Below, in pieces: positions 1,346 through 23,087 of a stretch of 23,458 nucleotides of DNA. This stretch comes from a virus. The DNA is taken from positions 1 to 23,458 of IMG/VR virus record IMGVR_UViG_3300030090_000535, one strand, 5' to 3'. Numbering within the stretch: the first letter of the stretch is position 1; each line of letters starts with the position of its first letter. The notes under the pieces are model-generated. The model searched no databases and was not told where the DNA came from. It saw only the letters and a list, made by a program, of their open reading frames with translations. Made by a program: the position numbers and the translations under genes.

Positions 1346-2852
1346 ATATAAACCTGATGGTCAAGTCTTAAAAGACTTTATGAAAGACAATACTTTCTTT
1401 CGTGGTATAAGAGGTCCAGTTGGTAGTGGCAAATCAGTAGCTTGTTCTATAGAAGTTTTTAGACGAGCATTAATGCAGGAGAAAGATAAGAATGGTAAAA
1501 GAAAAAGCAGGTGGGCAGTCATCAGGAATACGAATCCTCAACTTCGGACTACCACAATTAAGACTTGGTTGGATTGGTTTCCAGAGGAAGATTGGGGTAG
1601 GTTCTCTTGGTCAGTACCATATACGCATTTCATTACCCAAGCTGATTTGGAAATGGAAGTCATATTCCTTGCTCTTGATAGACCAGAAGATGTCAAAAAA
1701 CTCCTTTCGTTAGAACTTACTGGTGTGTGGGTTAATGAAGCAAGGGAAATTCCCAAGTCAATTATAGATGCCTGTACCATGAGAGTAGGTAGATACCCTT
1801 CTGTTAAAGATGGGGGTGCTACTTGGAATGGTGTTATATGTGATACGAATAGTCCTGAAGAAGATCATTGGTGGTCAATCATGTCAGGCGAAGTTCCAGT
1901 TCCAGACCATATAACTTTGGAAGAATCAAGAATGTTAGTTAAACCTGATAACTGGCAATTCTTTACACAGCCAAGTGGTATGCTTGAAGAAAAAGATGAA
2001 GATGGTTCTGTTGTCGGTTATAAGAAAAATATTAAAGCAGAAAATATAAATAATATTTTAGATACTTATTATCCTAATCTTGTTCAGGGAAAAACAAAGT
2101 CTTGGATAGATGTTTATGTAATGAATAGACTCGGTACAATTCAAGATGGTAAACCAGTTTATAATATGTTTGTGGCTGATACCCATGTGTCAAAAGAAGA
2201 AATACCAGTAGCAGATGGTGTTCCCTTGTATATTGGATTAGATTTTGGATTAACCCCTGCTGCTGTTTTTGGTCAAAAGGTTAGAGGTAGATGGATAATC
2301 TTACAGGAGATTGTGGCATTTGATATGGGCATTGTAAGATTTGCAGAGTTGCTTCGTGCAGAAATCGCAACACGATATTCTAATTTAGAAGTTAATATCT
2401 TTGGTGATCCTTCAGGAGATTTCAGGGCGCAGACTGATGAATCAACAGCTTTTCAAGTGTTAAGAGGTGCAGGGTTAAGTGCCAGACCTACTTCTAGTAA
2501 TGATGTATCGTTAAGAATTGAGTCTGTGGCATCTGTTTTAAATAGAATGGTAGATGGATTATCTGGAATTTTAATTGACTTTAGGTGCAAAGAACTGATA
2601 AAAGGTTTTGAGGGGGGTTATCAATATCGTAGACTTCAAGTATCAGGAGAACGATATGATGATAAACCTCTTAAAGACCGATACTCACATATACATGATG
2701 CTATGCAGTATCTTATGTTGGGTGCAGGTGAAGGCAGACAGGTATTAGGTATGAATAAAAAGATTGAAACATTTAATGCTAGAGTTGAGTATGATGTTTT
2801 TAAACGACAACCTAAAAATCCAAGAAGGCAAGGTCTATGGGCAAGAATGTAA
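1332..2852 (+). CDS. terL: Terminase large subunit (packaging ATPase and nuclease)
   Basis: This 506-residue protein is the DNA-packaging motor: it hydrolyses ATP at the portal to drive DNA into the procapsid and cuts the concatemer. The Walker A loop GPVGSGKS is at residues 28-35 and a Walker B-like VWVNE at 132-136, with catalytic E136. The RNase H-like nuclease domain follows: IGLDFG with D304, NIFGDPSGD with D359, and a C-terminal SHIHDAM with H455-D456, fitting a metal-dependent nuclease triad. The start is TTG at 1332, overlapping the preceding gene; ATG at 1380 (M17) is possible but would remove the YKPDGQVLKDF stretch that precedes the P-loop in relatives. Length is normal for a podovirus terminase. 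It sits before the portal, unlike T7, where terminase genes lie at the late end of the map. Confidence 0.95.
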   Translation: MIEFKYKPDGQVLKDFMKDNTFFRGIRGPVGSGKSVACSIEVFRRALMQEKDKNGKRKSRWAVIRNTNPQLRTTTIKTWLDWFPEEDWGRFSWSVPYTHFITQADLEMEVIFLALDRPEDVKKLLSLELTGVWVNEAREIPKSIIDACTMRVGRYPSVKDGGATWNGVICDTNSPEEDHWWSIMSGEVPVPDHITLEESRMLVKPDNWQFFTQPSGMLEEKDEDGSVVGYKKNIKAENINNILDTYYPNLVQGKTKSWIDVYVMNRLGTIQDGKPVYNMFVADTHVSKEEIPVADGVPLYIGLDFGLTPAAVFGQKVRGRWIILQEIVAFDMGIVRFAELLRAEIATRYSNLEVNIFGDPSGDFRAQTDESTAFQVLRGAGLSARPTSSNDVSLRIESVASVLNRMVDGLSGILIDFRCKELIKGFEGGYQYRRLQVSGERYDDKPLKDRYSHIHDAMQYLMLGAGEGRQVLGMNKKIETFNARVEYDVFKRQPKNPRRQGLWARM

Positions 2853-2857
2853 AGGAG
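2853..2857 (+). promoter_or_regulatory. Shine-Dalgarno site fixing the start at 2863
   Basis: AGGAG directly follows the terL stop codon and lies 5 bases before ATG 2863. It decides for this start over an in-frame ATG at 2764 inside terL. Confidence 0.75.
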
Positions 2858-2862
2858 TATTT

Positions 2863-3090
2863 ATGTGTATAGGTGGTAGAAGTAGCAGTCCTCCTCCTCC
2901 AACTAAAGAGGAAAAAGAAGCTGAAATGGAAAGAGAAGCACAAAAAGCCATTGAAACAGCAGAAAGAGATGACGCTAGACAAGATGTGCTTGAAGAAAAT
3001 ATTACAAGAAAAAGAAAAGGCGCAGGTCGTAGAAGTTTGTTAAGAGGTTCTGGTGGTGGAATCGGCTTTTATAATGAGTACGATAAATAA
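2863..3090 (+). CDS. Small conserved head-region protein (GRRSLL-GSGGGIGFY)
   Basis: A 75-residue protein between terL and portal. It begins MCIGGRSSSPPPP, continues with a highly charged helix (~15-50, KEEKEAEMEREAQ) and ends with a basic, glycine-rich tail GAGRRSLLRGSGGG and GFY. Proteins with an N-terminal MCxGG...P and a C-terminal RRSLL(T/R)GS.GG.GF motif are common just before the portal in marine and T7-like podoviruses; their function is unassigned. The tail suggests a docking peptide for a virion partner, which is inference. It ends in TAATG shared with the portal start. Confidence 0.8.
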   Translation: MCIGGRSSSPPPPTKEEKEAEMEREAQKAIETAERDDARQDVLEENITRKRKGAGRRSLLRGSGGGIGFYNEYDK

Positions 3091-4637
3091 TGTACGAAAA
3101 ATCTGCTGACATGATGCTGCAAAAATACGAGAAAGCTCTTTCTGTAAGGAGAGAGTTTGAAGAATTGTATGATGAAATCTTTGAATATTGTTTACCACAA
3201 AGGCAAGGGTTTAAAAATTATTCAGCAGGGCAAAGACGAGATGATAAGATATTTGATGAAACAGCAGTTGTAGGTATTCAAGAGTTTGCTTCAAGACTTC
3301 AATCAGGTCTTACTCCTAATTTTGCCAGATGGGCAGACTTTGTTACTGGATCAGAAGTTCCTGAAGAAGAAAGAGATGATGTTAATAATGCTTTAGATGG
3401 TGTTACTGATTATGTTTTTGAAATACTACAGACTTCAAACTTTGCACAAGAAATACATGAGTGCTTTATAGACTTGGCACTCGGTACAGCAGTATTGCTT
3501 GTAACCGAAGGTGATGCAGTTAATCCTATAAGATTTCAATCTATTCCTTTACCTCATGTTGTTTTAGATACTGGACCTGATGGCAGAGTAGATCATGTAT
3601 ATAGAGAACGATTAATTAAAAATGAGGATATATTAATAGCTTATCCTAAAGCTACCTTAACTCCAAAGATGGTAGAAAGAATTAATAACAATCCTGATGC
3701 TCATACAAAAATATTAGAAGTGTCTTGTAAACTTTATGACAAGCCAAATGAAGAACGATACTCGTATATGGTTATAGATGTAGCAGATAAGCAAATGATT
3801 ATGCAGGAATTGTATACAGGTGTAGGTTCTAATCCTTTTATTGCATTTAGATGGAGTAAAGCAAGTGGTGAAATCTATGGTCGTGGACCTGCTATTAATG
3901 CTTTAAGCGCAATCAAAACCTGTAACCTTACGATTGAATTAGTATTAGAAAATGCACAGATGGCTATATCAGGTATCTATCAGATAGATGATGATGGTGT
4001 AATTAATGTAGATACAATTAACCTCGTGCCTGGCACAGTCATTCCAAAAGCACCAAACACACAAGGATTGCAACCTATAAGAGCAGCAGGATCTTTTGAT
4101 GTAGCTAACCTTGTTCTTAATGACATGAGAAATAATATTAAAAGAGCATTGTATAATGATATGTTAGGTGATCCAAATAAAACACCTGCGTCTGCAACAG
4201 AAGTAGCAGAAAGAATGGCAGACCTATCTAGGAAAATAGGTTCAGCTTTTGGTAGATTACAAGCAGAAATGGTACAGCCAGTTTTACAAAGAGTTATTTA
4301 TATTTTAAAGAAACAGGGTCGGATAGAAATGCCAGTTGTAAATGGCAGAGAAGTCAAGATTCGTAGTGTGTCACCCCTTGCACAAGCGCAATCTAATCAA
4401 GATATTGTGTCTTTAAATAGATTTTTACAAACTGTTGCAAATTCATTCGGTCCTGAAATCCTAAATATATTAATATCTTCAGAAGAAACTGCGTTGTATC
4501 TAGCCAAGAAATTTGGTGTGCCTGATAATTTAATTCGTGATGCTGACGAAAGAAGGCAACTAATTGAAATGGCGCAACAAGTACAGCAAATGCAACAGCA
4601 AGGAGAAATACCAGATGCCACAGCACTTGGGGGTTGA
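3090..4637 (+). CDS. Portal / head-to-tail connector protein (T7 gp8-like)
   Basis: A 515-residue protein, close to T7 gp8 (536). It forms the dodecameric ring at the capsid vertex through which DNA is packaged and ejected. The N-terminus (KYEKALSVRREFEELYDEIFEYCLPQ) and the ARWADFVTGSEVPEEE region fit the podovirus head-tail connector family. Later segments such as NPFIAFRWSKASGEIYGRGPA and the LGDPNKTPASATEVAERMADL helix, about two thirds along, are characteristic of the portal core. The C-terminus is a Gln/Met-rich helix (QVQQMQQQGEIPDA). The start uses a TAATG overlap with a weak ribosome site, so translation is probably coupled to the small upstream gene. Confidence 0.95.
   Translation: MYEKSADMMLQKYEKALSVRREFEELYDEIFEYCLPQRQGFKNYSAGQRRDDKIFDETAVVGIQEFASRLQSGLTPNFARWADFVTGSEVPEEERDDVNNALDGVTDYVFEILQTSNFAQEIHECFIDLALGTAVLLVTEGDAVNPIRFQSIPLPHVVLDTGPDGRVDHVYRERLIKNEDILIAYPKATLTPKMVERINNNPDAHTKILEVSCKLYDKPNEERYSYMVIDVADKQMIMQELYTGVGSNPFIAFRWSKASGEIYGRGPAINALSAIKTCNLTIELVLENAQMAISGIYQIDDDGVINVDTINLVPGTVIPKAPNTQGLQPIRAAGSFDVANLVLNDMRNNIKRALYNDMLGDPNKTPASATEVAERMADLSRKIGSAFGRLQAEMVQPVLQRVIYILKKQGRIEMPVVNGREVKIRSVSPLAQAQSNQDIVSLNRFLQTVANSFGPEILNILISSEETALYLAKKFGVPDNLIRDADERRQLIEMAQQVQQMQQQGEIPDATALGG
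4601..4605 (+). promoter_or_regulatory. Shine-Dalgarno site fixing the start at 4615
   Basis: AGGAG inside the portal coding sequence lies 9 bases before ATG 4615. It favours this start over an upstream in-frame ATG at 4564. Confidence 0.65.
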
Positions 4638-4869
4638 TGGATACCCTCGTTCAAAAGAAGAAGATGAACGAATATCAAAGAATCTTTTAGGTCTGTTTAA
4701 TACACCTAACGGAACAGAAGTTTTAAAATATCTGAAATCAGTAACAATAGAAGCAGTTAGTGGACCTAACATTTCAGATGCAGAACTTCGTCATTTAGAA
4801 GGGCAACGATATTTAGTTGCTTTAATTGTTAAAAGAATCAATCATGCACAGAGGTTAAAAAATGAGTGA
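4615..4869 (+). CDS. Small head-region protein, Bbp19-like
   Basis: ATG 4615 gives 84 residues beginning MPQHLGVDGYPRSKEED and overlaps the portal end by 23 bases. The body reads LFNTPNGTEVLKYLKSVTIE, then LRHLEGQRYLVALIVKRI. The pattern of 'F-x-T-P-x-G-x-x-V-L-x-x-L' followed by 'EGQR-x-x-x-x-x-I' is that of the Bbp19-like small phage proteins found between portal and scaffold genes. Their role is not established; the position suggests head assembly. It overlaps the scaffold gene by 8 bases at ATGAGTGA. Confidence 0.75.
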   Translation: MPQHLGVDGYPRSKEEDERISKNLLGLFNTPNGTEVLKYLKSVTIEAVSGPNISDAELRHLEGQRYLVALIVKRINHAQRLKNE

Positions 4870-10491: not shown

Positions 10492-10974
10492 ATGGGATTA
10501 CCATTAGCATTAGCAGTAGCGTCAACTGGAATTAGTATATTGGGTTCAATGAGTGCAGCAGCAGCAGCAAAGCGAGAAGCAGCACTTCAACGCAGACAAT
10601 TACAAGCGCAAATAGAAGGCGCACAATTAGCTGCTTTACAAGACCATAATGCACGAATGAAAAATTTATCTACTTTTTTAGGAACAAATGAAGCCATTAC
10701 AGGAATTATGGGAAGGGATACAGATAAAAGTTTAAAGGCATTGCAAAAGAGAGCAAAAACAGAAATGGCAACAGAAACAGATAGAGCTAACTTACAATTT
10801 TTACAAGAAAAAGCCAAGTTATCTGCTGCACAAAGCATGGCGACAGAACGAGGAAGAAACTTATCTAGAGCATATAAGTTTCAAGCATTTTCCACATTAT
10901 TTTCTGGCGCAACACAAAGTTATAAACTGTATGGTTCTAAAGGTATTAATCCTTATTATCATGGTGGAACATAA
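10492..10974 (+). CDS. Internal virion protein (T7 gp14-like)
   Basis: 160 residues, in the T7 gp14 position. It starts with a hydrophobic Ala/Gly-rich helix (LALAVASTGISILGSMSAAA), then a long Arg/Gln/Ala amphipathic helix (AAKREAALQRRQLQAQIEGA), and a second helical half. This is typical of gp14-like ejection proteins, which leave the head first and form the outer-membrane part of the DNA-ejection channel. Sequence similarity to gp14 itself is weak by eye, so the call depends on helical pattern and gene order. Confidence 0.8.
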   Translation: MGLPLALAVASTGISILGSMSAAAAAKREAALQRRQLQAQIEGAQLAALQDHNARMKNLSTFLGTNEAITGIMGRDTDKSLKALQKRAKTEMATETDRANLQFLQEKAKLSAAQSMATERGRNLSRAYKFQAFSTLFSGATQSYKLYGSKGINPYYHGGT

Positions 10975-13727
10975 TGGCGCAATATATTAAGAGCAAACCA
11001 ACTACTTTTCGTAATAGACCAGTAGGTGTGGTTAATGTAAATACTGGCGCAATACAAGCAGCAAATATAGTAAGAACTGAAGCAAGTAAACTTGCTGCTC
11101 AATATTTTCAAGAAGAAGAAAAAATACAAACAGAATTAGGAAAAGATGTAGGATTAACTTTACCAGTTAGAGATAAAAGTGGCGAACTTCTTTTTCAAGA
11201 TGTACCATCATCATTAAGTGCAGTAGCACAATCTTCAGCTAAACCAATTATTCAGAAAAGATACCAAACAGCTTTACATTTAGATATTTTTAATAAGATA
11301 CAATCTATTAGAAACAATCCTGAAATTAAAACTTCACAACAATTTTCTGATGTTGTTGAAACAGAAATGGCATCTTATATAAATCAAACAAAATTAGACG
11401 GAGGTGAACAATATGTAGCTGCCATGACTGAAAGTGTTGCCAAATTATCTTCACAACATTTTAATGAAATGGTAGCAGAAGAAATGAAAGAGCAATTAAA
11501 AATTGCATCTCTTAATGAAAACTCTCTTATAACAAAAAGTGCGAAAGACCTTTATTCTACAGCAGGTAAAATGTTGTTAGATACTCAAACTCAAAAAGAT
11601 TTTATTAATATGCTTTCTACTCAAAAAGAAATAGTAAATGATTTATTAAAGGCAAATGACAATAACTTAAAAGAAAATGATTTGGATTGGCAAACTCATA
11701 GAGCTACTAATACTAACATAAAATCTACTATACCTAGAGGTTTATTAAGAGCATTTACAAAAAACAAAACATATAATGAAATTTTAGGAATTAGAAGTTA
11801 CATAGAAGATGGCACAGAATTACAGTTTAAAGATAAAAATGGTAAGCTAATACCTTTAAATGAAAAACAAAAAAGAATTTTAGATTGGATAAAAGAACAC
11901 CCTGAAAGAGAATCAATAGAAATAGAATTAAATACTATAAGGCAACAAAAAAAAGAAATTGAACAAGCAAATAGAACAGCAAAAACCCAAGAAAAAGCAG
12001 ATAAAACTCTTGCAATAAAAGAATTACAAGATGACCCAAATAATAAAACAGCAGCAATAGAATTTGTAGATGGTCAAACAGAAAAGTTTGACAGCATTTA
12101 TCAAAATTTAAAAAATAATAATTTTAATTTTAATGAAACTATTTCTGCTAATTTAAAAAAAATTCAAGATAATTTATGGAAAGCTACTACAAAAGAAGGT
12201 TTAGTTTGGAATGATAAAAATGGGCAAAAAAGAAGGATATTCTTATCTTCTAAAGCTGTGGCAAGTCTTATAGCTGATTCACAAAGCGAATTACTTTTAA
12301 ACCATTTTTCAAAATCAGGAAAATTTACGACATCTAATGACTATGCAAAATTATTACATCACATTGCAAATCCTGAATTAACTATTTTAAATTCAGAACA
12401 AAAAGAAATACATAAACAAGTTAAAAATTTTATAGATTCTTTTGGGTTACAAAAAGGTACTACAGATATTTTAGTTAGAAAATTGACGAATAAACATACT
12501 AATTTAAATAGAGTAGAAAGAGATGCTATAACAAATAATAAGAGTAAAAATGTACTTATGAACGCTAGTCAGGGTGTATTTAAAAAAACAGATGCATCAA
12601 CACTAAACGATAATTTAATAACTGATGATGATAATAAACTAACTGCAAATTATTTTACAGGTCAATATCAAAACGATTTAAGCCAAAATAGAGAGAAGGC
12701 AAAATTAATAGATAACTTGTTAAAAAAAGGTTCTTTCCCATCATCATTTTATAATATTTTAGAAAAAGTTACTTCTGGAAATGGCACATCTACTGATGTT
12801 GATAATGTTATAGCTTTGTTTTCCAAGTATGAGTCACAATTAAAAGATACTCAAAAATATAATGAAAAAGATTTTGCATTATTAAAAATAGCATCTGATC
12901 TTATTCCTAACTATCAAGGCACTACAATGTTTTTTGGGGTTGCAAATCAAGATAATGCGCCTGTTTCATCTCAACAAATGTTTTCTAAAATTAGAGAAGC
13001 ATTTAATTCAAGAACTGATGAGAATACAAAACATTATTTAGATAAAATTTTATCAGAAGGATTACAAAATAAATACAAGAGTTCTTTTTCCTATTTAAAA
13101 AGTTTAGATTTTGATGACACAGAAGCAAGTGAACTTTCTTTTGTTGTTGATCTTGCAGCATCTATGGGAATGAACGGAGATAATTTAAAAACATTATTAA
13201 GTTTAATAAAAGAAGATATTTATGCAGATGGTCAAGGATTTATACTAGATAAATTAAGTAGTGGTGGAGATAGCACAAAGTCAAAGCATAGCTTTTTAAA
13301 AAGATTTCCTGATGATAAGATGAGAGCAAATATTCTTTCGCAAATCTCAAGTGATATTGCAAGTCACCCTAAAGGAACTCATTTAGAGCGTGAAGCAAAT
13401 TTAAAATCAACAAAAGGTCGTTATATATTTGGATATGAAATGGCAGATATAGAAAATAAAGAACAATTACAAAATATAGCAGCACAAAGTAGTAACACGA
13501 ATTTAAATATTAGAGCAACTAATGAAAAAACAACACCTTATGATGTTAAAGTAATGTTACACCCATTTAGATATGGTCCAAATAATAGTTATGTGAGATA
13601 TATAGCTATGTATCAAAAAGGTCAATTTTATGTACCTTTGTATAAGCCAGATGATTCTTTGTATGTGTATGACGCAAGAGATTTAGAAGAAAAATATTTG
13701 GATAAATTTACTTGGTTAGGGGATTAA
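10974..13727 (+). CDS. Internal virion protein (T7 gp15-like core protein)
   Basis: 917 residues (T7 gp15: 747). The N-terminal segment GAIQAANIVRTEASKLAAQYFQ and ELGKDVGLTLPVRDKSGEL resembles the opening of gp15-like core proteins, and the remainder is predominantly helical, charged and Asn/Lys-rich. A small beta-rich C-terminal end is suggested by NNSYVRYIAMYQKGQFYVPL and DARDLEEKYLDKF. I see no transglycosylase or peptidase motif. The family forms the periplasmic tube of the ejectosome together with the gp16-like partner encoded next. It begins at a TAATG junction and its stop lies 5 bases before the next start. Confidence 0.85.
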   Translation: MAQYIKSKPTTFRNRPVGVVNVNTGAIQAANIVRTEASKLAAQYFQEEEKIQTELGKDVGLTLPVRDKSGELLFQDVPSSLSAVAQSSAKPIIQKRYQTALHLDIFNKIQSIRNNPEIKTSQQFSDVVETEMASYINQTKLDGGEQYVAAMTESVAKLSSQHFNEMVAEEMKEQLKIASLNENSLITKSAKDLYSTAGKMLLDTQTQKDFINMLSTQKEIVNDLLKANDNNLKENDLDWQTHRATNTNIKSTIPRGLLRAFTKNKTYNEILGIRSYIEDGTELQFKDKNGKLIPLNEKQKRILDWIKEHPERESIEIELNTIRQQKKEIEQANRTAKTQEKADKTLAIKELQDDPNNKTAAIEFVDGQTEKFDSIYQNLKNNNFNFNETISANLKKIQDNLWKATTKEGLVWNDKNGQKRRIFLSSKAVASLIADSQSELLLNHFSKSGKFTTSNDYAKLLHHIANPELTILNSEQKEIHKQVKNFIDSFGLQKGTTDILVRKLTNKHTNLNRVERDAITNNKSKNVLMNASQGVFKKTDASTLNDNLITDDDNKLTANYFTGQYQNDLSQNREKAKLIDNLLKKGSFPSSFYNILEKVTSGNGTSTDVDNVIALFSKYESQLKDTQKYNEKDFALLKIASDLIPNYQGTTMFFGVANQDNAPVSSQQMFSKIREAFNSRTDENTKHYLDKILSEGLQNKYKSSFSYLKSLDFDDTEASELSFVVDLAASMGMNGDNLKTLLSLIKEDIYADGQGFILDKLSSGGDSTKSKHSFLKRFPDDKMRANILSQISSDIASHPKGTHLEREANLKSTKGRYIFGYEMADIENKEQLQNIAAQSSNTNLNIRATNEKTTPYDVKVMLHPFRYGPNNSYVRYIAMYQKGQFYVPLYKPDDSLYVYDARDLEEKYLDKFTWLGD
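13718..13723 (+). promoter_or_regulatory. Ribosome site fixing the gp16-like start
   Basis: AGGGGA overlaps the end of the gp15-like gene and lies 9 bases before ATG 13733. It supports that start rather than an in-frame TTG at 13712. Confidence 0.6.
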
Positions 13728-13732
13728 AATTA

Positions 13733-16700
13733 ATGACTTTAAATTTTTGGGATACTAATCAGCCAATACCAATTAACAAAAATTCATTTGAGAAATCATT
13801 AGAACCTATGCTTGAAACAAGAGAGCAAAGAATACAAAGAGTTCTTAATCCTCAATTACCTTCATTTAGAACAAACACTTCATCAGAATTAGATGTAGAT
13901 TTTGCTGATACTTATAGCGCACAAATGGGATACAGTTATATGCCTATTATAAATGCTATTACAAATTGGTATAATTTTGATGAAGATGACAGAGATCAAA
14001 ACTTTAATCCTTTTGCGCATATGCAAGGTTATGAAGAATATTCAGATTATTTAAAAGATGCTGTTAATGAAAAGCACATGAATGTTTTAAAAGAACAATT
14101 AGAAGCTAATATTGAACGAAGGCATTTATTAGAGCATAGCAGTTTAGGTTCTCAATTAATTGCAGGTATATTTGATCCCATTAATTTAATTCCTTTGCCT
14201 TTTGGTCAATTTGCAAAAGGTGCTATATATGCAGGAAGTAGAATTGGAACACAAGTTGCAGGTATTACTGCACTAGCAGAAGCTGCAAGATACCCATTTG
14301 ACCCATTGGCAACACCTGAAGAAGTAGGTGCTAATATAGGAATGTCTTTTGTAGGTGGCGCATTATTAGGTGGTACTATTGGATTTGTAGCAGGAAGAAA
14401 ATTAAAAAAAGTTATAAATGAATTAGAAGCTGACGAAGCTCATCATATTAATTTAGCTAAAGAGGTATCTGAAAGTACAGAAAAAGCAGAAGTTTTTGTT
14501 TACAACGAAGAAACAATGCCAATAGAAGAATTAATAAAAAGAGGTGACAAAGATCAGCTTCAATCACATGAATTATCATTACCTAATAGAATAGCAAAAA
14601 TAAAAGAAAAAATTAAAACACAAGAAAAACACCCAGACATTTTTACTAATGAAGTTGTAGAAAAATCTTTTTATAATCAGAGAAAAGAATTAAGAGAAAA
14701 AATTGCTAATGAAAAACAAAAAGTTAAAAACTTTGTTTTAAAAAATAAAGAACTACAAAAAAGTGTGGAAGGTTTTGAGTCATCTATTGGTAAAATAAAA
14801 AAAGCAAGAGATGAATATTCTGTTAATTTAAAGAACATTAAAAAGCGATTAATAGATCAAGCTGAAGGAAGAAGTCTTACTATAGGTTTAACAAAAAAAC
14901 AATTAGACTTTTTAAGTCAAATTAAATCAAAAGAAGCAAATAAATTTTTTACACCAAAACAAAAGAAAGCAGTAAATATTTTAATAAAAAAAATAGAAGA
15001 TGCTCAAAAGAAAATAGAAACTAATAAAAAATTATTAGCAACTAAACGAGAAGGAAATATTGTTTTTTTAGGTGATAAACAAATTCGTGTAATTCAAGAA
15101 GATTTGGAAAAAGTAACTGAAGTTATAAGAAAAAATAATAGATTAACATCAAATTATACACAGTTAAGTAGATGGGAATCAGACTATCAAAAAATAAGAA
15201 ATGAATTAAAACAAAGAAAAATTAATGAAGATGCTTTGTATAATGCAGAAGGAGTATTAGTTAATAAATATAATTTAACATCAGATACATGGTATGGAAG
15301 ATTATATTTAAATTCTCCATTGTTTAAAGGTGTTCCTACACCAGTAAAAGACGCTTTACAACATAAAACATTGCCTCAATTAAGTAAGAAAAAGGTTATA
15401 GATTTAGCAGGTGATAATGCTTTAAATCTTGAAGCGCATAAACATGGTGAAGCAATTTCAGGATCAGTAAATACTAAAGCCATTAGAAGAAATGGCGAAT
15501 ATGTTAAAGTGCATGACAAATTAAGAAAACTCTATTCAGAACATACAGGAAAAAATCAAGTATATTTAGATTATGATTTTCAAAAAAGGGGATACCACGA
15601 ATGGCTAGAGGATACTTATACAAGGATTTTAAAAGGTGAATCTTTATCTGATTTAGATAAAAAAGTAAAATCTGTAACTAAAGAATTTTGGACTATGTGG
15701 GAAGAAAGAGCCAGAAAACAAGGAATAATAGGTGATTCAGGAAGTATAAAAAAAAGTATTACAAAAAAAGAATTAGATATAATTAATTATACAAAAAAGT
15801 TAAGAGATGTTGTTAGAAAAGCTGCCACAGAATTTGAGTTAGAAAATGCAAATATAATTATTAAAGATGCTGAATCTATATTAACAGGTGTTAGAAAACA
15901 AACTCGTTATAAAAACACAAAATCACTTTCTATAGCTGAAATACAAGAAAGATTTGGTGATGATTATAATATAAAGAAATTAATAGATGACCCTAAACTA
16001 CTTGACGAATATAGAAATAAAAATCCAGATGTATCCAATACATTAGGGTTTCATGTTTTTTACGATCAAAAAAAAGGTGATGTTTATATTGATGAAGCAG
16101 GTATTAGAGAAAGATGGAGAATACTTACAAAAGGACAAAAAGAAGAATTTAAAGAAACTTTTTATCAAAAGTATTTAAGCCAATATATTCCTGAAGAAAA
16201 AAAACATATAGGCACAATGCACTTAAAGTTTGAATATGATAACTATAAGTATTTTGATTCATATGATGACCTTTATGATTTTATTGTATTTCACGAATTA
16301 ACTCATGGAAAGTATAAACAATTTAAAAATGAAACATTGTTTGATTTTGAATATCGTACAAATGAATTGGCATTAGAACGATTATTAATGGAAAAAGAAC
16401 AATTTAATCCAATTACACAAGGCATGGTTTTGGGTAAAAAAACCATGAAAGATTTAGATTCTTTAAAAAAATTAAAATATGAAAAAGGTTTATCACCAGA
16501 TCAAGTAAAATATAAAAACAATGTTATTAATTATATTAAAGAAATAAATGAAGAATTAATTGGGTTAAGAAAAAATTTAAAAGATGCTGAAGATACAAAA
16601 ATCTTACCAAAAGATGTAGAAGATTTTTTTCCTAGATATTGGAATGTAGAAAAAATAAAAGAAAATAGAGAGCAACTTGCAGAAATATTAACTCAATGGT

Positions 16701-18550
16701 TTATGGATAATCCTACAGTTTTTAAAAAAAATAAAAATGGAAATATAGAAAGAACTCCTGCATTAACACCTTATGAAACAATGAAAGCTACAGATCCTGC
16801 AAATGTTCTTAAAAGAGTAAATCAATCTATAGATAATATTATTAAAAATAAAAATGATGTAACTGAAGATGAAATGGCATTTTTTGGGCATGGTAAATCT
16901 AAACATTTTAGACATAGAAATTTGGACATACCTAATAAATTAGTTACTGATTTTATCATTACAAACCCTGTTCAAGTTATGCAAGTTTATACTAAAAAAG
17001 TAGCACCTAAATATGAATTTATGGTTAAGTTTGAAGGTAAAAATATAGACGAAGTTATGAGAGATTTAACTCTTGATAACTATCAAGCAGGAATGTCAGA
17101 AATAGAAGTTAATAAGATTAATAAAAATTTTTTACATTTATACGATAGAGTTGTTGGTAATGTTATAAAAAATCCTGATAGATGGGATCAGACAGCAGTA
17201 ATTATATTAAGAGATTTAGCACAGCTTTCTTGGTTAGGCAGTTCAGGTTTTAGCACATTACCTGATTTAGCAAAAATTTTAATGGAACATGAAATTGGAA
17301 ATGTAATGAAGGGATTAACTGGAATATTACAAGATTCAAGAGTAAGAATGACAGCAAAAGAAGGTAGACTTGCAGGAGAAATATTAGAAATATTGCAGGG
17401 TGATGTTCATTTAAGAAATGTAGAAGATTTAACAAACACTCCTCTTGCACAAGGTTATCAATTAAAAATGAGCAAAGTAAGAAATTTGTTTTTTGCTTTA
17501 AATGGTTTAGCACCTATGACCAATTTAATGAAAAAATTAGATTCTGTTATTAGACAACATGAAATGATTGATTTTGCTATAAAAGAAATTAACGGAACAG
17601 CAAAAGCAAGTGACATAACATATTTAAGAAGATACGGAATATCTAACAAAATATCAGAAGATATAAAAAAACTTGTTGATAAAGATATAATACAAAATAC
17701 AAAAGATGGTAATGGTTTATGGTTAGCTAATACAGAAAAATGGATTGAAAATGGTGCAGCAGAAGAATCATTAGATGCTTTTCGTGATTCTTTAAATAGT
17801 GGAATAATGAATACTATATTAATGGCAACTCCTGCTGATAAACCTATTATAGCAGATGGTGTAGTTTACATTCCTAAATGGATTGGTGAAAAATTTGGCA
17901 TGAAAGAAGATATAAGGTTTAAAGGATACACAAGGATTGAAACTGGTTTGGCAGGATTGCCATTTCAATTTTGGTCATATTCATTTGCTGCTGCAAATAA
18001 GATAACTGCTGCTATAGCAACTGGTCAGGCAAAAAATAGAGCTGCTGCTGTTACAGCAGCAATAGCTTTAGGTTATGTTTCTCTTGAAATTAAATCAAGA
18101 TATAGTGGACCTGCTATAGAAGCAATGTTTGATAATATGTCTTGGGAAGATAAACTTGCACGATCTATAGATTCTTCAGGATTGTTAGCAATGTATAGTG
18201 ATTTGTTTTATACTGCAATGGATACAAGTTTAGCATTAGGTGGACCTGATATTTCAATGGGGTTGTTGCAACCAAAAGTACCAAGAAATTATAAAGATAT
18301 GAGTGCATGGGAAAAAGCAGGAGAAGTTATAGGCGCAGTAGGTGGCGCAGGACCAAGTATAGGCATTGAATTATTTAAAGGTGCAAAACAATTTGTTGAA
18401 GGAAATTATGGTTATGGGTCAAGACAAATAATTAAAAATTTGCCTTTTATGAGATTATGGTTTATGAAGGAAATGACACATGAATTGGGGAGTGTTTTAA
18501 CAGATATAGAAGATGAAGGATTAGAAAGAGTAGTAAGGACTAGATTTTAA
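13733..18550 (+). CDS. Large internal virion protein (T7 gp16-like) with zincin motif
   Basis: 1605 residues from ATG 13733 (T7 gp16: 1318). The likely role is ejection from the head to build the cytoplasmic-membrane part of the DNA channel. Residues ~135-225 hold two hydrophobic stretches (LIAGIFDPINLIPLPFGQF; FVGGALLGGTIGFVAG), as in gp16-like cyanophage proteins. About 225-500 is a very long Lys/Glu-rich coiled region. HELTH at 854-858, with E878 20 residues after the second His, forms a gluzincin-type zinc-peptidase motif inside the sequence FIVFHELTHGKYKQF. The C-terminal quarter has channel-like segments (PFQFWSYSFAAANKITAAIA near 1409-1428; RAAAVTAAIALGYVSLEIK) and ends GLERVVRTRF. No N-terminal lytic transglycosylase as in T7 gp16 is seen. 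It ends in TAATG shared with the fibre gene. Confidence 0.9.
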   Translation: MTLNFWDTNQPIPINKNSFEKSLEPMLETREQRIQRVLNPQLPSFRTNTSSELDVDFADTYSAQMGYSYMPIINAITNWYNFDEDDRDQNFNPFAHMQGYEEYSDYLKDAVNEKHMNVLKEQLEANIERRHLLEHSSLGSQLIAGIFDPINLIPLPFGQFAKGAIYAGSRIGTQVAGITALAEAARYPFDPLATPEEVGANIGMSFVGGALLGGTIGFVAGRKLKKVINELEADEAHHINLAKEVSESTEKAEVFVYNEETMPIEELIKRGDKDQLQSHELSLPNRIAKIKEKIKTQEKHPDIFTNEVVEKSFYNQRKELREKIANEKQKVKNFVLKNKELQKSVEGFESSIGKIKKARDEYSVNLKNIKKRLIDQAEGRSLTIGLTKKQLDFLSQIKSKEANKFFTPKQKKAVNILIKKIEDAQKKIETNKKLLATKREGNIVFLGDKQIRVIQEDLEKVTEVIRKNNRLTSNYTQLSRWESDYQKIRNELKQRKINEDALYNAEGVLVNKYNLTSDTWYGRLYLNSPLFKGVPTPVKDALQHKTLPQLSKKKVIDLAGDNALNLEAHKHGEAISGSVNTKAIRRNGEYVKVHDKLRKLYSEHTGKNQVYLDYDFQKRGYHEWLEDTYTRILKGESLSDLDKKVKSVTKEFWTMWEERARKQGIIGDSGSIKKSITKKELDIINYTKKLRDVVRKAATEFELENANIIIKDAESILTGVRKQTRYKNTKSLSIAEIQERFGDDYNIKKLIDDPKLLDEYRNKNPDVSNTLGFHVFYDQKKGDVYIDEAGIRERWRILTKGQKEEFKETFYQKYLSQYIPEEKKHIGTMHLKFEYDNYKYFDSYDDLYDFIVFHELTHGKYKQFKNETLFDFEYRTNELALERLLMEKEQFNPITQGMVLGKKTMKDLDSLKKLKYEKGLSPDQVKYKNNVINYIKEINEELIGLRKNLKDAEDTKILPKDVEDFFPRYWNVEKIKENREQLAEILTQWFMDNPTVFKKNKNGNIERTPALTPYETMKATDPANVLKRVNQSIDNIIKNKNDVTEDEMAFFGHGKSKHFRHRNLDIPNKLVTDFIITNPVQVMQVYTKKVAPKYEFMVKFEGKNIDEVMRDLTLDNYQAGMSEIEVNKINKNFLHLYDRVVGNVIKNPDRWDQTAVIILRDLAQLSWLGSSGFSTLPDLAKILMEHEIGNVMKGLTGILQDSRVRMTAKEGRLAGEILEILQGDVHLRNVEDLTNTPLAQGYQLKMSKVRNLFFALNGLAPMTNLMKKLDSVIRQHEMIDFAIKEINGTAKASDITYLRRYGISNKISEDIKKLVDKDIIQNTKDGNGLWLANTEKWIENGAAEESLDAFRDSLNSGIMNTILMATPADKPIIADGVVYIPKWIGEKFGMKEDIRFKGYTRIETGLAGLPFQFWSYSFAAANKITAAIATGQAKNRAAAVTAAIALGYVSLEIKSRYSGPAIEAMFDNMSWEDKLARSIDSSGLLAMYSDLFYTAMDTSLALGGPDISMGLLQPKVPRNYKDMSAWEKAGEVIGAVGGAGPSIGIELFKGAKQFVEGNYGYGSRQIIKNLPFMRLWFMKEMTHELGSVLTDIEDEGLERVVRTRF
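16292..16366 (+). other. Zincin-type metallopeptidase motif HExxH...E
   Basis: Codons for H854-E855-L-T-H858 start at 16292 and the putative third ligand E878 is at 16364-16366. Flanks (VF before, GK after, RTNELALERL around E878) form the two-helix arrangement expected of minimal gluzincins. Zinc binding and catalysis are inferred. Confidence 0.6.
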
Positions 18551-19830
18551 TGACAATAGCATTAAGCGATAATACACCACGAGTTAGTTACACAGTAAGT
18601 GAAAGTGCTTCTCAAACTTCTTTTGCTGTACCCTTTGTTTTCTTTGATGGTTCATCAGACCTTAATGTTTATGTAGATAATACAGCTAGGAGTTATCATG
18701 CTTCAACTGCGAATACTACGCAATATACTGTATCAGGTGGGAGTGGTGCTACTGGCAGCATTAATACTAATGTTACTGGTGCTAGTGGTGGGAGTACAGT
18801 AGTTATTACTCGTGCTGTTCCTCTTTCACGAACAACAGATTTTCCAAGTTCAGGTGCTTTTGAAGTATCTAAACTTAACACAGAATTAGATACATTAATT
18901 GCTATTAACTCTGATTTTAATGATGATGCGTCACGAGCATTAAGATTAAAAGATTCCGATAGTGCTGTTTCAATGGAGTTACCATTACTTGCAGCTAGAA
19001 AAGGAACTGTATTAGGATTTAATGCTTCTACTGGTGCTGCTGAAGCAGGACCTACGATTGCTAATGTTAATTCTTTATCGGCAATAACTGCTAATATAAA
19101 TACAGTAGCAGGTATTGCTTCAAATGTAACTACAGTAGCAGGTATTGCTTCCAATGTAACTACAGTTGCAGGTATATCTTCAAATGTTACAGCAGTTGCA
19201 GCAAAGGCATCATTAATTACATCTGATTTTGTTGCAGATTTAAATACATTAGCTACATCAGATATAGTAAGTGACCTTAATACTCTTGCTACAGCAGATA
19301 TTGTTTCCGATTTAAATACATTAGCTACAAGTGATATAGTTTCAGACTTAAACACATTGGCTACTAGTGATATAGTTTCAGATATAAACACACTTGCTAC
19401 AAGTGATATAGTTTCTGATTTAAATACATTAGCTACATCAGATTTTGTTTCTGATTTAAATGCTATAGAAGCTATTAAAGCAAATGTTACTACTGTTGCA
19501 GGGAATATAGCAGGGGTTAATTCATTTGCTGACAGATACAGAGTTGCTTCATCTGATCCTTCATCAAGTCTTGATGCAGGTGATTTGGCATTTAACACAA
19601 GTTCTAATGTACTTAAATATTATAATGGAAGTTCATGGCAAACTATATCAGCAGTTACTACTGGCATATCTAGTGGAAATGTGTTAGTTGCTACAAGTGG
19701 TATTGCTGATAATGACTTTTTAAGAGTAGATGGAACATCTATAGAAGGTAGAAGTGCAAGTGAAGTTGCTAGTGATATAGGTGCAGCAACACAAGATGAT
19801 GCAACAGCTTTAGCAATAGCTTTAGGATAA
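18550..19830 (+). CDS. Tail fibre protein with T7 gp17-type N-terminal domain
   Basis: 426 residues (T7 gp17: 553). Residues 1-~140 are the tail-attachment domain: NTPRVSYTVSESASQTSFAV, PFVFFDGSSDLNVYVD, VVITRAVPLSRTTDF and LNTELDTLIAINSDF are its typical segments. About 182-221 holds four 10-residue repeats (NVTTVAGIAS type), about 227-310 seven 12-residue repeats (DLNTLATSDIVS type), probably a trimeric shaft. A NVLKYYNGSSWQTIS segment and FLRVDGTSIEGRSASEVASD follow, both common in marine-phage fibres. The protein ends soon after with no obvious receptor-binding or chaperone domain, so tips are probably supplied by the downstream genes. Start at TAATG with AAGGA upstream. Confidence 0.9.
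   Translation: MTIALSDNTPRVSYTVSESASQTSFAVPFVFFDGSSDLNVYVDNTARSYHASTANTTQYTVSGGSGATGSINTNVTGASGGSTVVITRAVPLSRTTDFPSSGAFEVSKLNTELDTLIAINSDFNDDASRALRLKDSDSAVSMELPLLAARKGTVLGFNASTGAAEAGPTIANVNSLSAITANINTVAGIASNVTTVAGIASNVTTVAGISSNVTAVAAKASLITSDFVADLNTLATSDIVSDLNTLATADIVSDLNTLATSDIVSDLNTLATSDIVSDINTLATSDIVSDLNTLATSDFVSDLNAIEAIKANVTTVAGNIAGVNSFADRYRVASSDPSSSLDAGDLAFNTSSNVLKYYNGSSWQTISAVTTGISSGNVLVATSGIADNDFLRVDGTSIEGRSASEVASDIGAATQDDATALAIALG
19093..19212 (+). repeat. Four 30-base (10-residue) coding repeats in the fibre
   Basis: In-frame units NINTVAGIAS, NVTTVAGIAS, NVTTVAGISS and NVTAVAAKAS. The first units are nearly identical in DNA and later ones drift. They form part of the fibre shaft. 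Confidence 0.85.
19228..19479 (+). repeat. Seven 36-base (12-residue) coding repeats in the fibre
   Basis: Seven consecutive in-frame units of the form (F/I)V(S/A)D(L/I)NTLAT(S/A)D. The protein units are almost invariant, but codons differ between copies (for example TTAAAT, CTTAAT, TTAAAC and ATAAAC for the L/I-N pair). The last copy has degenerated to FVSDLNAIEAIK. Confidence 0.9.
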
Positions 19831-20200: not shown

Positions 20201-20650
20201 ATGCCATATATAGGTAATTCGTTAGCAGCTAATTTTCAAACACCCCCTGCTGTAGTTAGGTTTAATGGTGATGGCTCTGATACAACATTTGCACTTGGAA
20301 GGACAATAGGTTCTGTTCAAGAGATATTGGTATCAGTTGATGGTGTTGTTCAGGATAGTGCTGCTTATACTGTGCCTGATGGCTCTACTCTTACTTTTAG
20401 CGCAGCACCTTCAAGTGGAACAGGAAATATCTTTGTATATTTTCTTGAATTAGCAGGTGCAACAATAACTCCTACTGACCAATTCAAAGGTAATTTTAAA
20501 GCAGGTGGTTTATTTAGAACAAACGCACAAACATTAGATTCAAACATAACTATCTTGGCTACAGAAAATGCACAAGTTACAGGTCCACTTACAGTTTCAA
20601 GTGGAGTTACACTTACTGTTGAAAGTGGTGGAAGGTTGGTAACATCATGA
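20201..20650 (+). CDS. YIG-module fibre/adhesin protein
   Basis: 149 residues. It starts MPYIGNSLAANFQTPPAVV, continues with an Ig-like module (GDGSDTTFALGRTIGSV, ILVSVDGVVQDSAAYTV, LTFSAAPSSGTGNIFVYFLE) and ends with a repetitive beta region (LFRTNAQTLDSNITI, ENAQVTGPLTVSSGVTLTVE) that looks like a beta-solenoid cap. Such modules occur in tail fibres and separate fibre-associated proteins of marine phages, and are probably involved in host attachment (inference). It is related to the truncated gene at the window end. GGAG in the last codons of the preceding gene serves as the ribosome site, and its stop forms ATGA with the next start. Confidence 0.78.
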   Translation: MPYIGNSLAANFQTPPAVVRFNGDGSDTTFALGRTIGSVQEILVSVDGVVQDSAAYTVPDGSTLTFSAAPSSGTGNIFVYFLELAGATITPTDQFKGNFKAGGLFRTNAQTLDSNITILATENAQVTGPLTVSSGVTLTVESGGRLVTS

Positions 20651-21021
20651 GTACAATTAAGGTAGATACAGTACAAAGCAGAGGTGCAGGTGCAGTTATA
20701 CTAACTAACCAAAGTGCGTCTAAATTTAGAGTACATCATTCTGGTGATTCGCCCACAACAAATGAAAGTCTTAACATGAGTAGTTTATCAGATGAAGGAA
20801 GTGGAGAATACGCATATTCATTTAGTAATAATTTTAATACTGTTTATTTTACTACTACTGCCATGAGTACAGAAGATGGAACAATCGGTTATGTAACAAT
20901 GTATTATAGTAGAGATTATACTCGTGCTTCTTCTAGCGTACATCTTCAAGGTATAGATCAAGGAGATAGTTATGATGATGGACAATATACTTCTGTTGTT
21001 TCACATGGAGACCTAGCATGA
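20647..21021 (+). CDS. GDLA-family fibre-associated protein, copy 1
   Basis: 124 residues: MSTIKVDTVQSRGAGAVILT, then the family core (KFRVHHSGDSPTTNESLNMS, SDEGSGEYAYSFSNNFNTVY) and the C-terminus SVVSHGDLA. The 'S-x-N-x-S-S-x-x-D-x-G-x-G-x-Y-x-x-x-F-x-N' core is shared with three other genes nearby and with adhesin-like small proteins of marine phages. The MSTIKVDT start is also common in fibre proteins of that group. It is the most diverged copy: the KAW segment is replaced by KFRVHH. It probably forms a beta-rich trimer tip or receptor-binding accessory; function inferred. Confidence 0.72.
   Translation: MSTIKVDTVQSRGAGAVILTNQSASKFRVHHSGDSPTTNESLNMSSLSDEGSGEYAYSFSNNFNTVYFTTTAMSTEDGTIGYVTMYYSRDYTRASSSVHLQGIDQGDSYDDGQYTSVVSHGDLA
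21007..21010 (+). promoter_or_regulatory. Ribosome site encoded inside GDLA codons, copy 1
   Basis: GGAG, from the Gly-Asp codons of the terminal HGDLA, lies 7 bases before ATG 21018 of the next paralogue. Confidence 0.7.
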
Positions 21022-21413
21022 GTACCATAAAGACAAACACCTTAACAGGTACAACTTCAGCAGGTAGCATTGTTGTTACAGGAGAGGGTGGTTCTACCAC
21101 GACTAACTTACAACAAGGGTTGGCTAAAGCATTTTGTCATTGGAACTCTACCACGACAATAGCTAATGGATTTAACATTAGTTCTATTGATGATGACGGA
21201 ACAGGAGATAATGATTTAAACTATACAAATCCTTTTAGTAATACAGAAAGCATTATTACATCAGGTACAGAAAATTCTTTTCAATCATCACATATGTGCA
21301 TGACTACGATTGGTGGTAACACTACAGCAGATTGTACTATATATGGTGTAATAACAACTGGTGCAAATAAAGATGTTGGTCAATTTATTTTAGTAGATGG
21401 AGACCTCGCATAA
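21018..21413 (+). CDS. GDLA-family fibre-associated protein, copy 2
   Basis: 131 residues: MSTIKTNTLTGTTSAGSIVV, then NLQQGLAKAFCHWNSTTTIA, FNISSIDDDGTGDNDLNYTN and the C-terminus LVDGDLA. The N-terminus matches copy 1, while the QQGL-AKAF-C segment matches copy 4 (QQGLSKSWCVFN) with a shared 12-base DNA identity. A beta-rich tail-tip module is the best guess. Starts at ATGA, ends at TAATG. Confidence 0.72.
   Translation: MSTIKTNTLTGTTSAGSIVVTGEGGSTTTNLQQGLAKAFCHWNSTTTIANGFNISSIDDDGTGDNDLNYTNPFSNTESIITSGTENSFQSSHMCMTTIGGNTTADCTIYGVITTGANKDVGQFILVDGDLA
21399..21402 (+). promoter_or_regulatory. Ribosome site encoded inside GDLA codons, copy 2
   Basis: GGAG in the terminal DGDLA codons lies 10 bases before ATG 21413. 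Confidence 0.65.
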
Positions 21414-21808
21414 TGGCAAACGGAACAATAGCATTTGATACATTAACAACATCTGACCAAGCAAAGTCTGGTACAGAAAAATCTGTTGATACAAGTTATA
21501 TTTATAATGGTGTAACAAAAGCATGGCTATCTTTTGATGGCACAAGCACAGCTCACATAGATGATTCTCTTAATTTTTCAACTGTAACAGATGGTGGAAC
21601 AGGAGATTATGCTATTAGTTTTACTAATGCTATGAATAGTGCTGATTATTCTCATACAAATGGTGCTGCTAGTCCTTCTGGACAATCTTTTGGTATAAGG
21701 CAACCTAATAATATGAGTACCACTCAAGTCTCATTTGAAACATATTACGCAACAACACAAGCAGATTTTGCAAATGTATCAAGTGCAATACATGGAGATT
21801 TAGCATGA
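21413..21808 (+). CDS. GDLA-family fibre-associated protein, copy 3
   Basis: 131 residues. The N-terminus (MANGTIAFDTLTTSDQAK) differs from copies 1 and 2. The core is canonical: KAWLSFDG from K36, DDSLNFSTVTDGGTGDYAIS at ~50-69 and FTNAMNSADY at ~70-79, and the end is AIHGDLA. It matches the marine-phage module 'KAW..F.G...I.DS.N.S..TD.GTGDY...F...M..A.Y', which is attached to fibres or found as stand-alone genes. The shared core with swapped N-termini suggests module exchange. Confidence 0.75.
   Translation: MANGTIAFDTLTTSDQAKSGTEKSVDTSYIYNGVTKAWLSFDGTSTAHIDDSLNFSTVTDGGTGDYAISFTNAMNSADYSHTNGAASPSGQSFGIRQPNNMSTTQVSFETYYATTQADFANVSSAIHGDLA
21794..21797 (+). promoter_or_regulatory. Ribosome site encoded inside GDLA codons, copy 3
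   Basis: GGAG in the terminal HGDLA codons lies 7 bases before ATG 21805. Confidence 0.7.
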
Positions 21809-22682: not shown

Positions 22683-23087
22683 ATGGCTCTTACTAGAGTT
22701 ATAAATTCAGGCATAGGTGTTGCTGCGTCTATTGCAGGTGAAGGTACAGCTACGACCAGTTTGCAACAAGGGTTGTCTAAATCTTGGTGTGTTTTTAATG
22801 GTGAAGGATCAGTAGCTATAACGGATAGCAATAATAGTACATCTTTAACAGATGTCGCTGTAGGAGACTATACTTTGGGTTTTACTAATAATATGAATAG
22901 TGCAGCTTATATTGTTACTGGCTCAAGTGTTGGAAGTGATGCTGCTAATTGGTGGAACGCTTTATATGGAGATGGTGCAAACAACACAACTAGCGTGTAT
23001 GAAATAAATTTTGTGCATAGAACTGACTCTGAAGGTCAAATAGACAATGACCATTCTGGCGTGGTAATACATGGAGATTTAGCGTAA
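22683..23087 (+). CDS. GDLA-family fibre-associated protein, copy 4
   Basis: 134 residues. The N-terminus MALTRVINSGIGVAASIAG is typical of fibre-associated proteins in marine phages. The core is SLQQGLSKSWCVFNGEGSVA, ITDSNNSTSLTDVAVGDYTL and FTNNMNSAAYIVTG; the end is GVVIHGDLA. It is separated from copies 1-3 by the two assembly-factor-like genes. AGGAG overlaps the stop codon of the preceding gene (TAGGAG) and serves as its ribosome site. Confidence 0.75.
   Translation: MALTRVINSGIGVAASIAGEGTATTSLQQGLSKSWCVFNGEGSVAITDSNNSTSLTDVAVGDYTLGFTNNMNSAAYIVTGSSVGSDAANWWNALYGDGANNTTSVYEINFVHRTDSEGQIDNDHSGVVIHGDLA
23073..23076 (+). promoter_or_regulatory. Ribosome site encoded inside GDLA codons, copy 4
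   Basis: GGAG in the terminal HGDLA codons lies 10 bases before ATG 23087. Confidence 0.65.

Follow-up and report, generated by a model that had tools for sequence, protein, structure and literature searches.

The gp16-like ejection protein encoded in a 23,458-base virus record (the window, by which we mean the whole stretch of DNA analysed) was found to carry a distinct inserted segment, about 190 aa long (residues ~695–885, bp 15815–16387, boundaries approximate), which contains a HELTH sequence followed by a conserved glutamate. This module is very probably zincin-like, because its conservation and several individually weak lines of fold and sequence evidence agree. Among related loci it is present at differing positions, absent or decayed, and from these comparisons it looks like an accessory insert resembling exchangeable cargo, since intact copies occupy three sites, absences are clean, and both histidines have been lost in one clade. 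Residues are numbered from the ATG at bp 13733, and the features described for the gp15-like and gp16-like genes are on the plus strand.

Genomic context and carrier protein

The window contains genes for a head-tail connector (portal-type), T7-type capsid assembly, capsid and tail tube, and downstream of these are three ejection-protein genes: an ORF (bp 10492–10974) matching the internal virion protein of PHROG 418 (E = 6e-6), a gp15-like ORF (bp 10974–13727, 917 aa) and a gp16-like ORF (bp 13733–18550, 1,605 aa), an arrangement corresponding to the gp14-gp15-gp16 order of T7. The gp15-like ORF was assigned by its position and its resemblance to the corresponding gene of relatives, being 9–34% identical to the counterpart in 29 of them. 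The gp16-like protein, which showed full-length homology with 52–54% identity to those of loci L011–L017, matched PHROG 342 (E = 9e-47) and PHROG 16310 (E = 1e-28); because it is homologous to gp16, it would be packaged in the virion and ejected with the DNA. PHROG 342 is named "internal virion protein with endolysin domain", and the match of the window protein begins only at profile position 205, so that the region expected for the lytic domain precedes the match. Compared with T7 gp16 and the PHROG 342 proteins, the window protein lacks the N-terminal lytic region and contains the insert.

Two further observations concern the region beyond these genes. An ORF at the tail-fibre position (bp 18550–19830) contains a repeated SDIVSDLNTLAT unit and weakly matched the LED repeat (PF20854, E = 8e-5, under the curated cut-off), and four short ORFs (bp 20647–21021, 21018–21413, 21413–21808 and 22683–23087) in the tail/receptor region are paralogue-like, each ending in (H/D)GDLA.

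Conserved residues of the module

A sequence-only reading of this DNA had proposed a zinc-metallopeptidase motif with HELTH at residues 854–858 (bp 16292–16306) and E878 (bp 16364–16366), 20 residues past H858, as the third ligand. Both positions were confirmed in the sequence, and a zinc-metallopeptidase-like domain in the gp16-like protein is borne out by the conserved HExxH, the conserved downstream Glu and the zincin-like predicted topology described below; the assignment of the third ligand had to be changed. In two alignments of diverged copies (A7, 13 copies; A8, 38 copies), F850, H854, E855, H858, E873 and N877 were invariant, and A880 and D846 were invariant or nearly so, with D846 and F850 both invariant in A7. 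Conservation of HExxH together with a downstream Glu, as in gluzincins, was thus seen in both alignments. By contrast, the column of E878 was variable (D 53, E 6, Q 5, K 4 and N 1 in 69 distinct modules, a count in which the E...N..A box was located by pattern, the invariance itself resting on the 13- and 38-copy alignments). Since E873 (bp 16349–16351) is invariant and E878 is not, the third zinc ligand is most likely E873, which forms the box E...N..A with N877 and A880. Of the four residues whose invariance had been put forward as a check, H854, E855 and H858 were invariant in intact copies and E878 was not.

Among 107 module ORFs (70 distinct sequences), 104 had a downstream E...N..A/T box, and the other three had longer inserts in between. 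The number of residues separating the second His from the conserved Glu ranged from 14 to 117 in relatives, because some of them hold extra sequence between the two helices. A thermolysin-like spacing, suggested by the 20 residues between H858 and E878, was accordingly dropped, given this range and the variability of E878. In L060, L061, L063–L065 and L169, roughly 76–100 residues were added between HEIMH and the E...N box; L062, otherwise 81–91% identical to L060, is without them.

Values of dN/dS were 0.03–0.28 across ten module pairs, showing at the codon level that the module is under purifying selection. That HELTH arose by chance in a helical protein has practically no probability left. 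The composition of the protein predicts 0.037 occurrences of HExxH, and at about 0.04 occurrences such a motif could arise by chance if many proteins are considered; HExxH with the downstream E...N..A box appeared in 0.02% of 5000 shuffles, the box having been picked after the alignment was seen. However, the motif is invariant in diverged copies residing at different sites and is present or absent together with the module as a unit, and we rejected the chance explanation on the basis of this conservation in homologues.

Predicted structure and relation to known metallopeptidases

The AlphaFold model of the window module (residues 680–935, built from 13 sequences) had a pLDDT of 78 and a pTM of 0.66, and that of a compact copy described below (L108, from 38 sequences) had values of 86.8 and 0.79, respectively. 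In the window model, three beta strands were predicted at residues 749–751, 775–778 and 783–786 (bp 15977–16090; local strands 70–72, 96–99 and 104–107), an active-site helix at residues 844–860 (bp 16262–16312) containing D846, F850 and HELTH, and a glutamate helix at residues 869–890 (bp 16337–16402; local helix 190–211). In the compact model, three strands are followed by a helix and then by the HEIMH and E/N helices. Both models thus have the same order of strands, support helix, HExxH helix and Glu helix, the window copy having two additional helices that follow the support helix and precede the HExxH helix, and the beta sheet, HExxH helix and Glu helix expected of a zincin fold are predicted in both.

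The fold search that had been suggested gave a divided result, with the zincin-like topology predicted and no zincin or other meaningful match for the window model in the PDB by Foldseek. For the compact model, the top eight PDB matches were minigluzincins (selecase, jannalysin) and the later ones were mostly zincins, all at non-significant levels (E = 0.19 or worse, 0.19–0.95 for the minigluzincins; TM about 0.3). The minigluzincins (selecase, jannalysin, abylysin), whose best E value was this 0.19, are the nearest solved structures; they are minimal soluble archaeal zincins of ~110 aa that stand alone, whereas the module here is embedded in an ejection protein. Among viral models, the compact model matched four at E ≤ 1e-3, all uncharacterised viral proteins of 990–1325 aa, followed by IrrE- and SprT-like peptidases; the likeness to ImmA/IrrE-like peptidases is limited to these weak structural matches, and no scanned module had a Pfam match to that family. 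Weak sequence matches were obtained to MPTase-PolyVal (E = 0.0076), the PHROG 87 metallo-protease (E = 0.025) and dipeptidyl-peptidase III (E = 0.038). No single database match significant for peptidase function was found, the Pfam matches lying under the curated cut-offs; for MPTase-PolyVal (PF18818), the best score was 16.8 bits (L041) against a cut-off of 27.5, and the window module itself gave no match.

The closest known system appears to be MPTase-PolyVal (PMC5512222), for which Iyer et al. described a small three-strand zincin core with a HExxH helix followed by a Glu helix, located N-terminally, centrally or C-terminally in large proteins of phages that are believed to inject them. It differs from the module family described here in that the sequence match is under the Pfam cut-off; in addition, the MPTase-PolyVal carriers are N4-type RNA polymerases or plasmid primases, whereas here a T7-gp16-type ejection protein is the carrier and the domain is a clean insert at several sites of one orthologous protein. 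The words internal virion and ejection proteins are absent from PMC5512222. Subdomain C1 of the N4 virion RNA polymerase (PMC12633501), which we liken to the module by its description, is likewise a HExxH domain of a podophage protein that is packaged and ejected, the carrier being an RNA polymerase as opposed to a gp16-type channel protein. In the open-licence literature, we found no paper on metallopeptidase-bearing podovirus ejection proteins, which does not by itself prove novelty.

Distribution of the module among related loci

When the module or the entire window protein was used as a single query against IMG/VR, nothing was returned, and an alignment of the C-terminal half was required to find relatives. 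With a C-terminal alignment excluding the module, 80 IMG/VR loci were gathered, a set unbiased for the motif. HExxH was present in the gp16-like ORF of 28 of these, and a profile of the intact copies detected a homologous degenerate module in 18 more (16 of them at E ≤ 2e-7 and the remaining two, the weakest, at 4e-5 and 3e-4) as well as in Pelagibacter phage EXVC031P Hodr; the remainder comprised 27 loci with no detectable module and 7 fragments that cannot be judged. In the degenerate copies (L073–L090 and L001), which constitute the Hodr clade, HExxH is replaced by KExxR/S/K and the box is retained as E..R(I/L)N. Every module of the 80-locus set outside this clade has an intact HExxH.

The 107 module ORFs mentioned above were reached through a second scan, for which the compact module served as query; the patterns used included part of the motif, so that the HExxH rate in that scan is not independent evidence. 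A scan with the window-type module returned only the seven known A-type loci, and a compact-module scan of bacterial and archaeal genomes found no relative. Among phage records, only Hodr was reasonably close to the window protein (25–36% identity in matched parts); weak matches to Vibrio, Escherichia and other phages were mostly confined to the C-terminal half, and these phages have no HExxH. No phage record was matched by the window module in tblastn, and the sole match of the compact copy was the degenerate module of Hodr (E = 5e-5). The earlier idea of a family-wide activity is thus not supported: the module is widespread in marine relatives but patchily distributed, and both histidines have been lost in one clade, to which the only cultured member belongs.

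Insertion sites and presence or absence of the module

When each protein was mapped onto the window protein, intact copies were found at three sites, central, near residue 1340 and N-terminal. The central site of the window is shared by L011–L017, and in the close relatives L019, L020 and L054 the equivalent of window residue 694 is joined to that of 875 with a short leftover; accordingly, the window and L012 each differ from L019 by ~180–240 aa. In L036–L042, L057–L067, L070 and L072, nothing occupies the central site, and a compact copy of ~125 aa is instead found where the equivalents of residues 1337 and 1343–1345 flank it, a site that is empty in the window (residues 1337–1343, bp 17741–17761). 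Comparison of L039 with L028 revealed a clean difference of 125 aa, with flanks 69% and 84% identical and residues 1031 and 1032 of L028 directly adjacent. The module of L033 is in the N-terminal third of the protein, and the degenerate copies of the Hodr clade, except that of L074, are at about residues 310–450.

A quick tree was made from the C-terminal core, and in it the window-type copies formed one clade (support 99) and the degenerate copies another (support 100). Occupancy of the compact site required at least 3 changes, and overall 8 changes were counted as compared with 23.8 when labels were shuffled. Some joins are on long branches, so the order of gain and loss is not firm, and movement of one module and separate acquisitions are both compatible with the tree.

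Relation to the lytic transglycosylase

The transglycosylase of T7 resides in the N-terminal part of gp16, and this domain can be moved to the gp15-like protein in other phages; an N-terminal lytic transglycosylase is absent from P22-like relatives as well (PMC8954989). The sequence-only reading had noted no recognisable transglycosylase in the gp16-like or the gp15-like protein of the window and had proposed that a protease is ejected in place of a muramidase. Pfam agreed with the first statement for both window proteins, and likewise detected no transglycosylase in 34 gp16-like and 30 gp15-like proteins of the family, with or without the module. This negative is soft, because Pfam also missed the gp15-like ORF of L003 (bp 2591–4732), which is annotated as a putative lytic transglycosylase and contains no simple SLT motif, as is the case for all public gp15-like relatives searched; the L003 annotation may be remote or wrong, and an unrecognised transglycosylase may exist in the family.

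The second statement fared worse. A module that stands in for the gp16 transglycosylase and cleaves peptide cross-links to open the peptidoglycan would be in keeping with the mobility of the transglycosylase domain between ejection proteins and with its apparent absence from the window proteins. However, close relatives without the module are likewise without a Pfam transglycosylase, so presence of the module is not correlated with transglycosylase loss; moreover, the position of the module differs between relatives, that of the window is not N-terminal, and no peptidoglycan-peptidase family was matched. We therefore regard replacement as very improbable.

Proposed function

We favour, as the probable reading, an accessory minimal gluzincin-type module akin to MPTase-PolyVal that is ejected with the DNA, cutting of host or defence proteins being its preferred role. 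In the predicted site, zinc would be held by H854, H858 and E873, and E855 would act as the catalytic base. Carried inside the gp16-like protein, the module would be delivered along with the DNA; its most likely action is to cut a protein after ejection, a host or defence protein being preferred as substrate over obligatory maturation of the ejection proteins. The dispensability of the module and the analogy with polyvalent proteins point to host-directed action, and we give even chances to its being an effector of this kind.

Both attack on host proteins and self-processing have been proposed for the MPTase domains of polyvalent proteins, the latter including N4-type virion RNA polymerases (PMC5512222). 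By this precedent, segments of the gp16-like protein or of its partners might be cut free by the module, either inside the head or once ejection has taken place. We consider this unlikely, since the gp16 architecture is unchanged in module-free close relatives and in the clade with dead copies, which argues against obligatory processing, and three different sites are ill-suited to one fixed cleavage geometry. More generally, a module that is dispensable in evolution, found at several sites and sometimes dead speaks against essential maturation or wall passage. Retention of the fold for binding or structure without catalysis is less probable still: in the Hodr clade the module is still recognisable and the E...N box persists although both histidines are gone, so the fold may be of some use without zinc, but outside this clade HExxH is intact in all modules of the unbiased set and purifying selection is evident.

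ART-like segments and the cargo idea

Polyvalent proteins are large injected virion proteins that unite unlike enzymatic domains in a single chain. By homology the window protein is a virion/ejection protein with one zincin-like module, and an ART-like module was seen only in relatives, by motif resemblance. Four module-free loci (L026, L047, L049 and L052) contain a segment (YHG ... S.S....A..YT ... EAM.EVV) with an ART-like H...Y...E pattern, located in the gp16-like ORF at residues ~736–911 in L047 and 261–412 in L026, for which no Pfam, PHROG or PDB match was found. L047 and L055, whose flanks are 94–95% identical, differ cleanly by the presence and absence of this stretch. In the gp16-like ORFs of L164 and L165, past residue ~905, an insertion of ~230 residues separates the HExxH helix from the E...N box; within it is a stretch resembling ART (FVHYT..NIESLLRNGYD...GDVMYFTND) that had no Pfam ART match. 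If confirmed, the ART-like segments would strengthen a cargo reading.

It is possible, and we suggest it tentatively, that ejection proteins of ocean podophages have tolerated slots serving as a cargo bay, in which enzyme modules (a zincin here, an ART-like module in other lineages) are exchanged, relocated, lost or inactivated without change to the channel-forming protein, and which may deliver, as the DNA enters, different effectors directed at host functions or defences. Zincin domains in injected phage proteins were already known; here, one orthologous ejection protein is found with the module at three sites, without it through a clean in-frame absence, or with a dead copy. This natural series makes function testable by comparison, and its dead-copy end is accessible to experiment because a pelagiphage of the Hodr lineage is in culture. 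The series speaks against a role of the module in essential processing or wall cutting and points to cargo.
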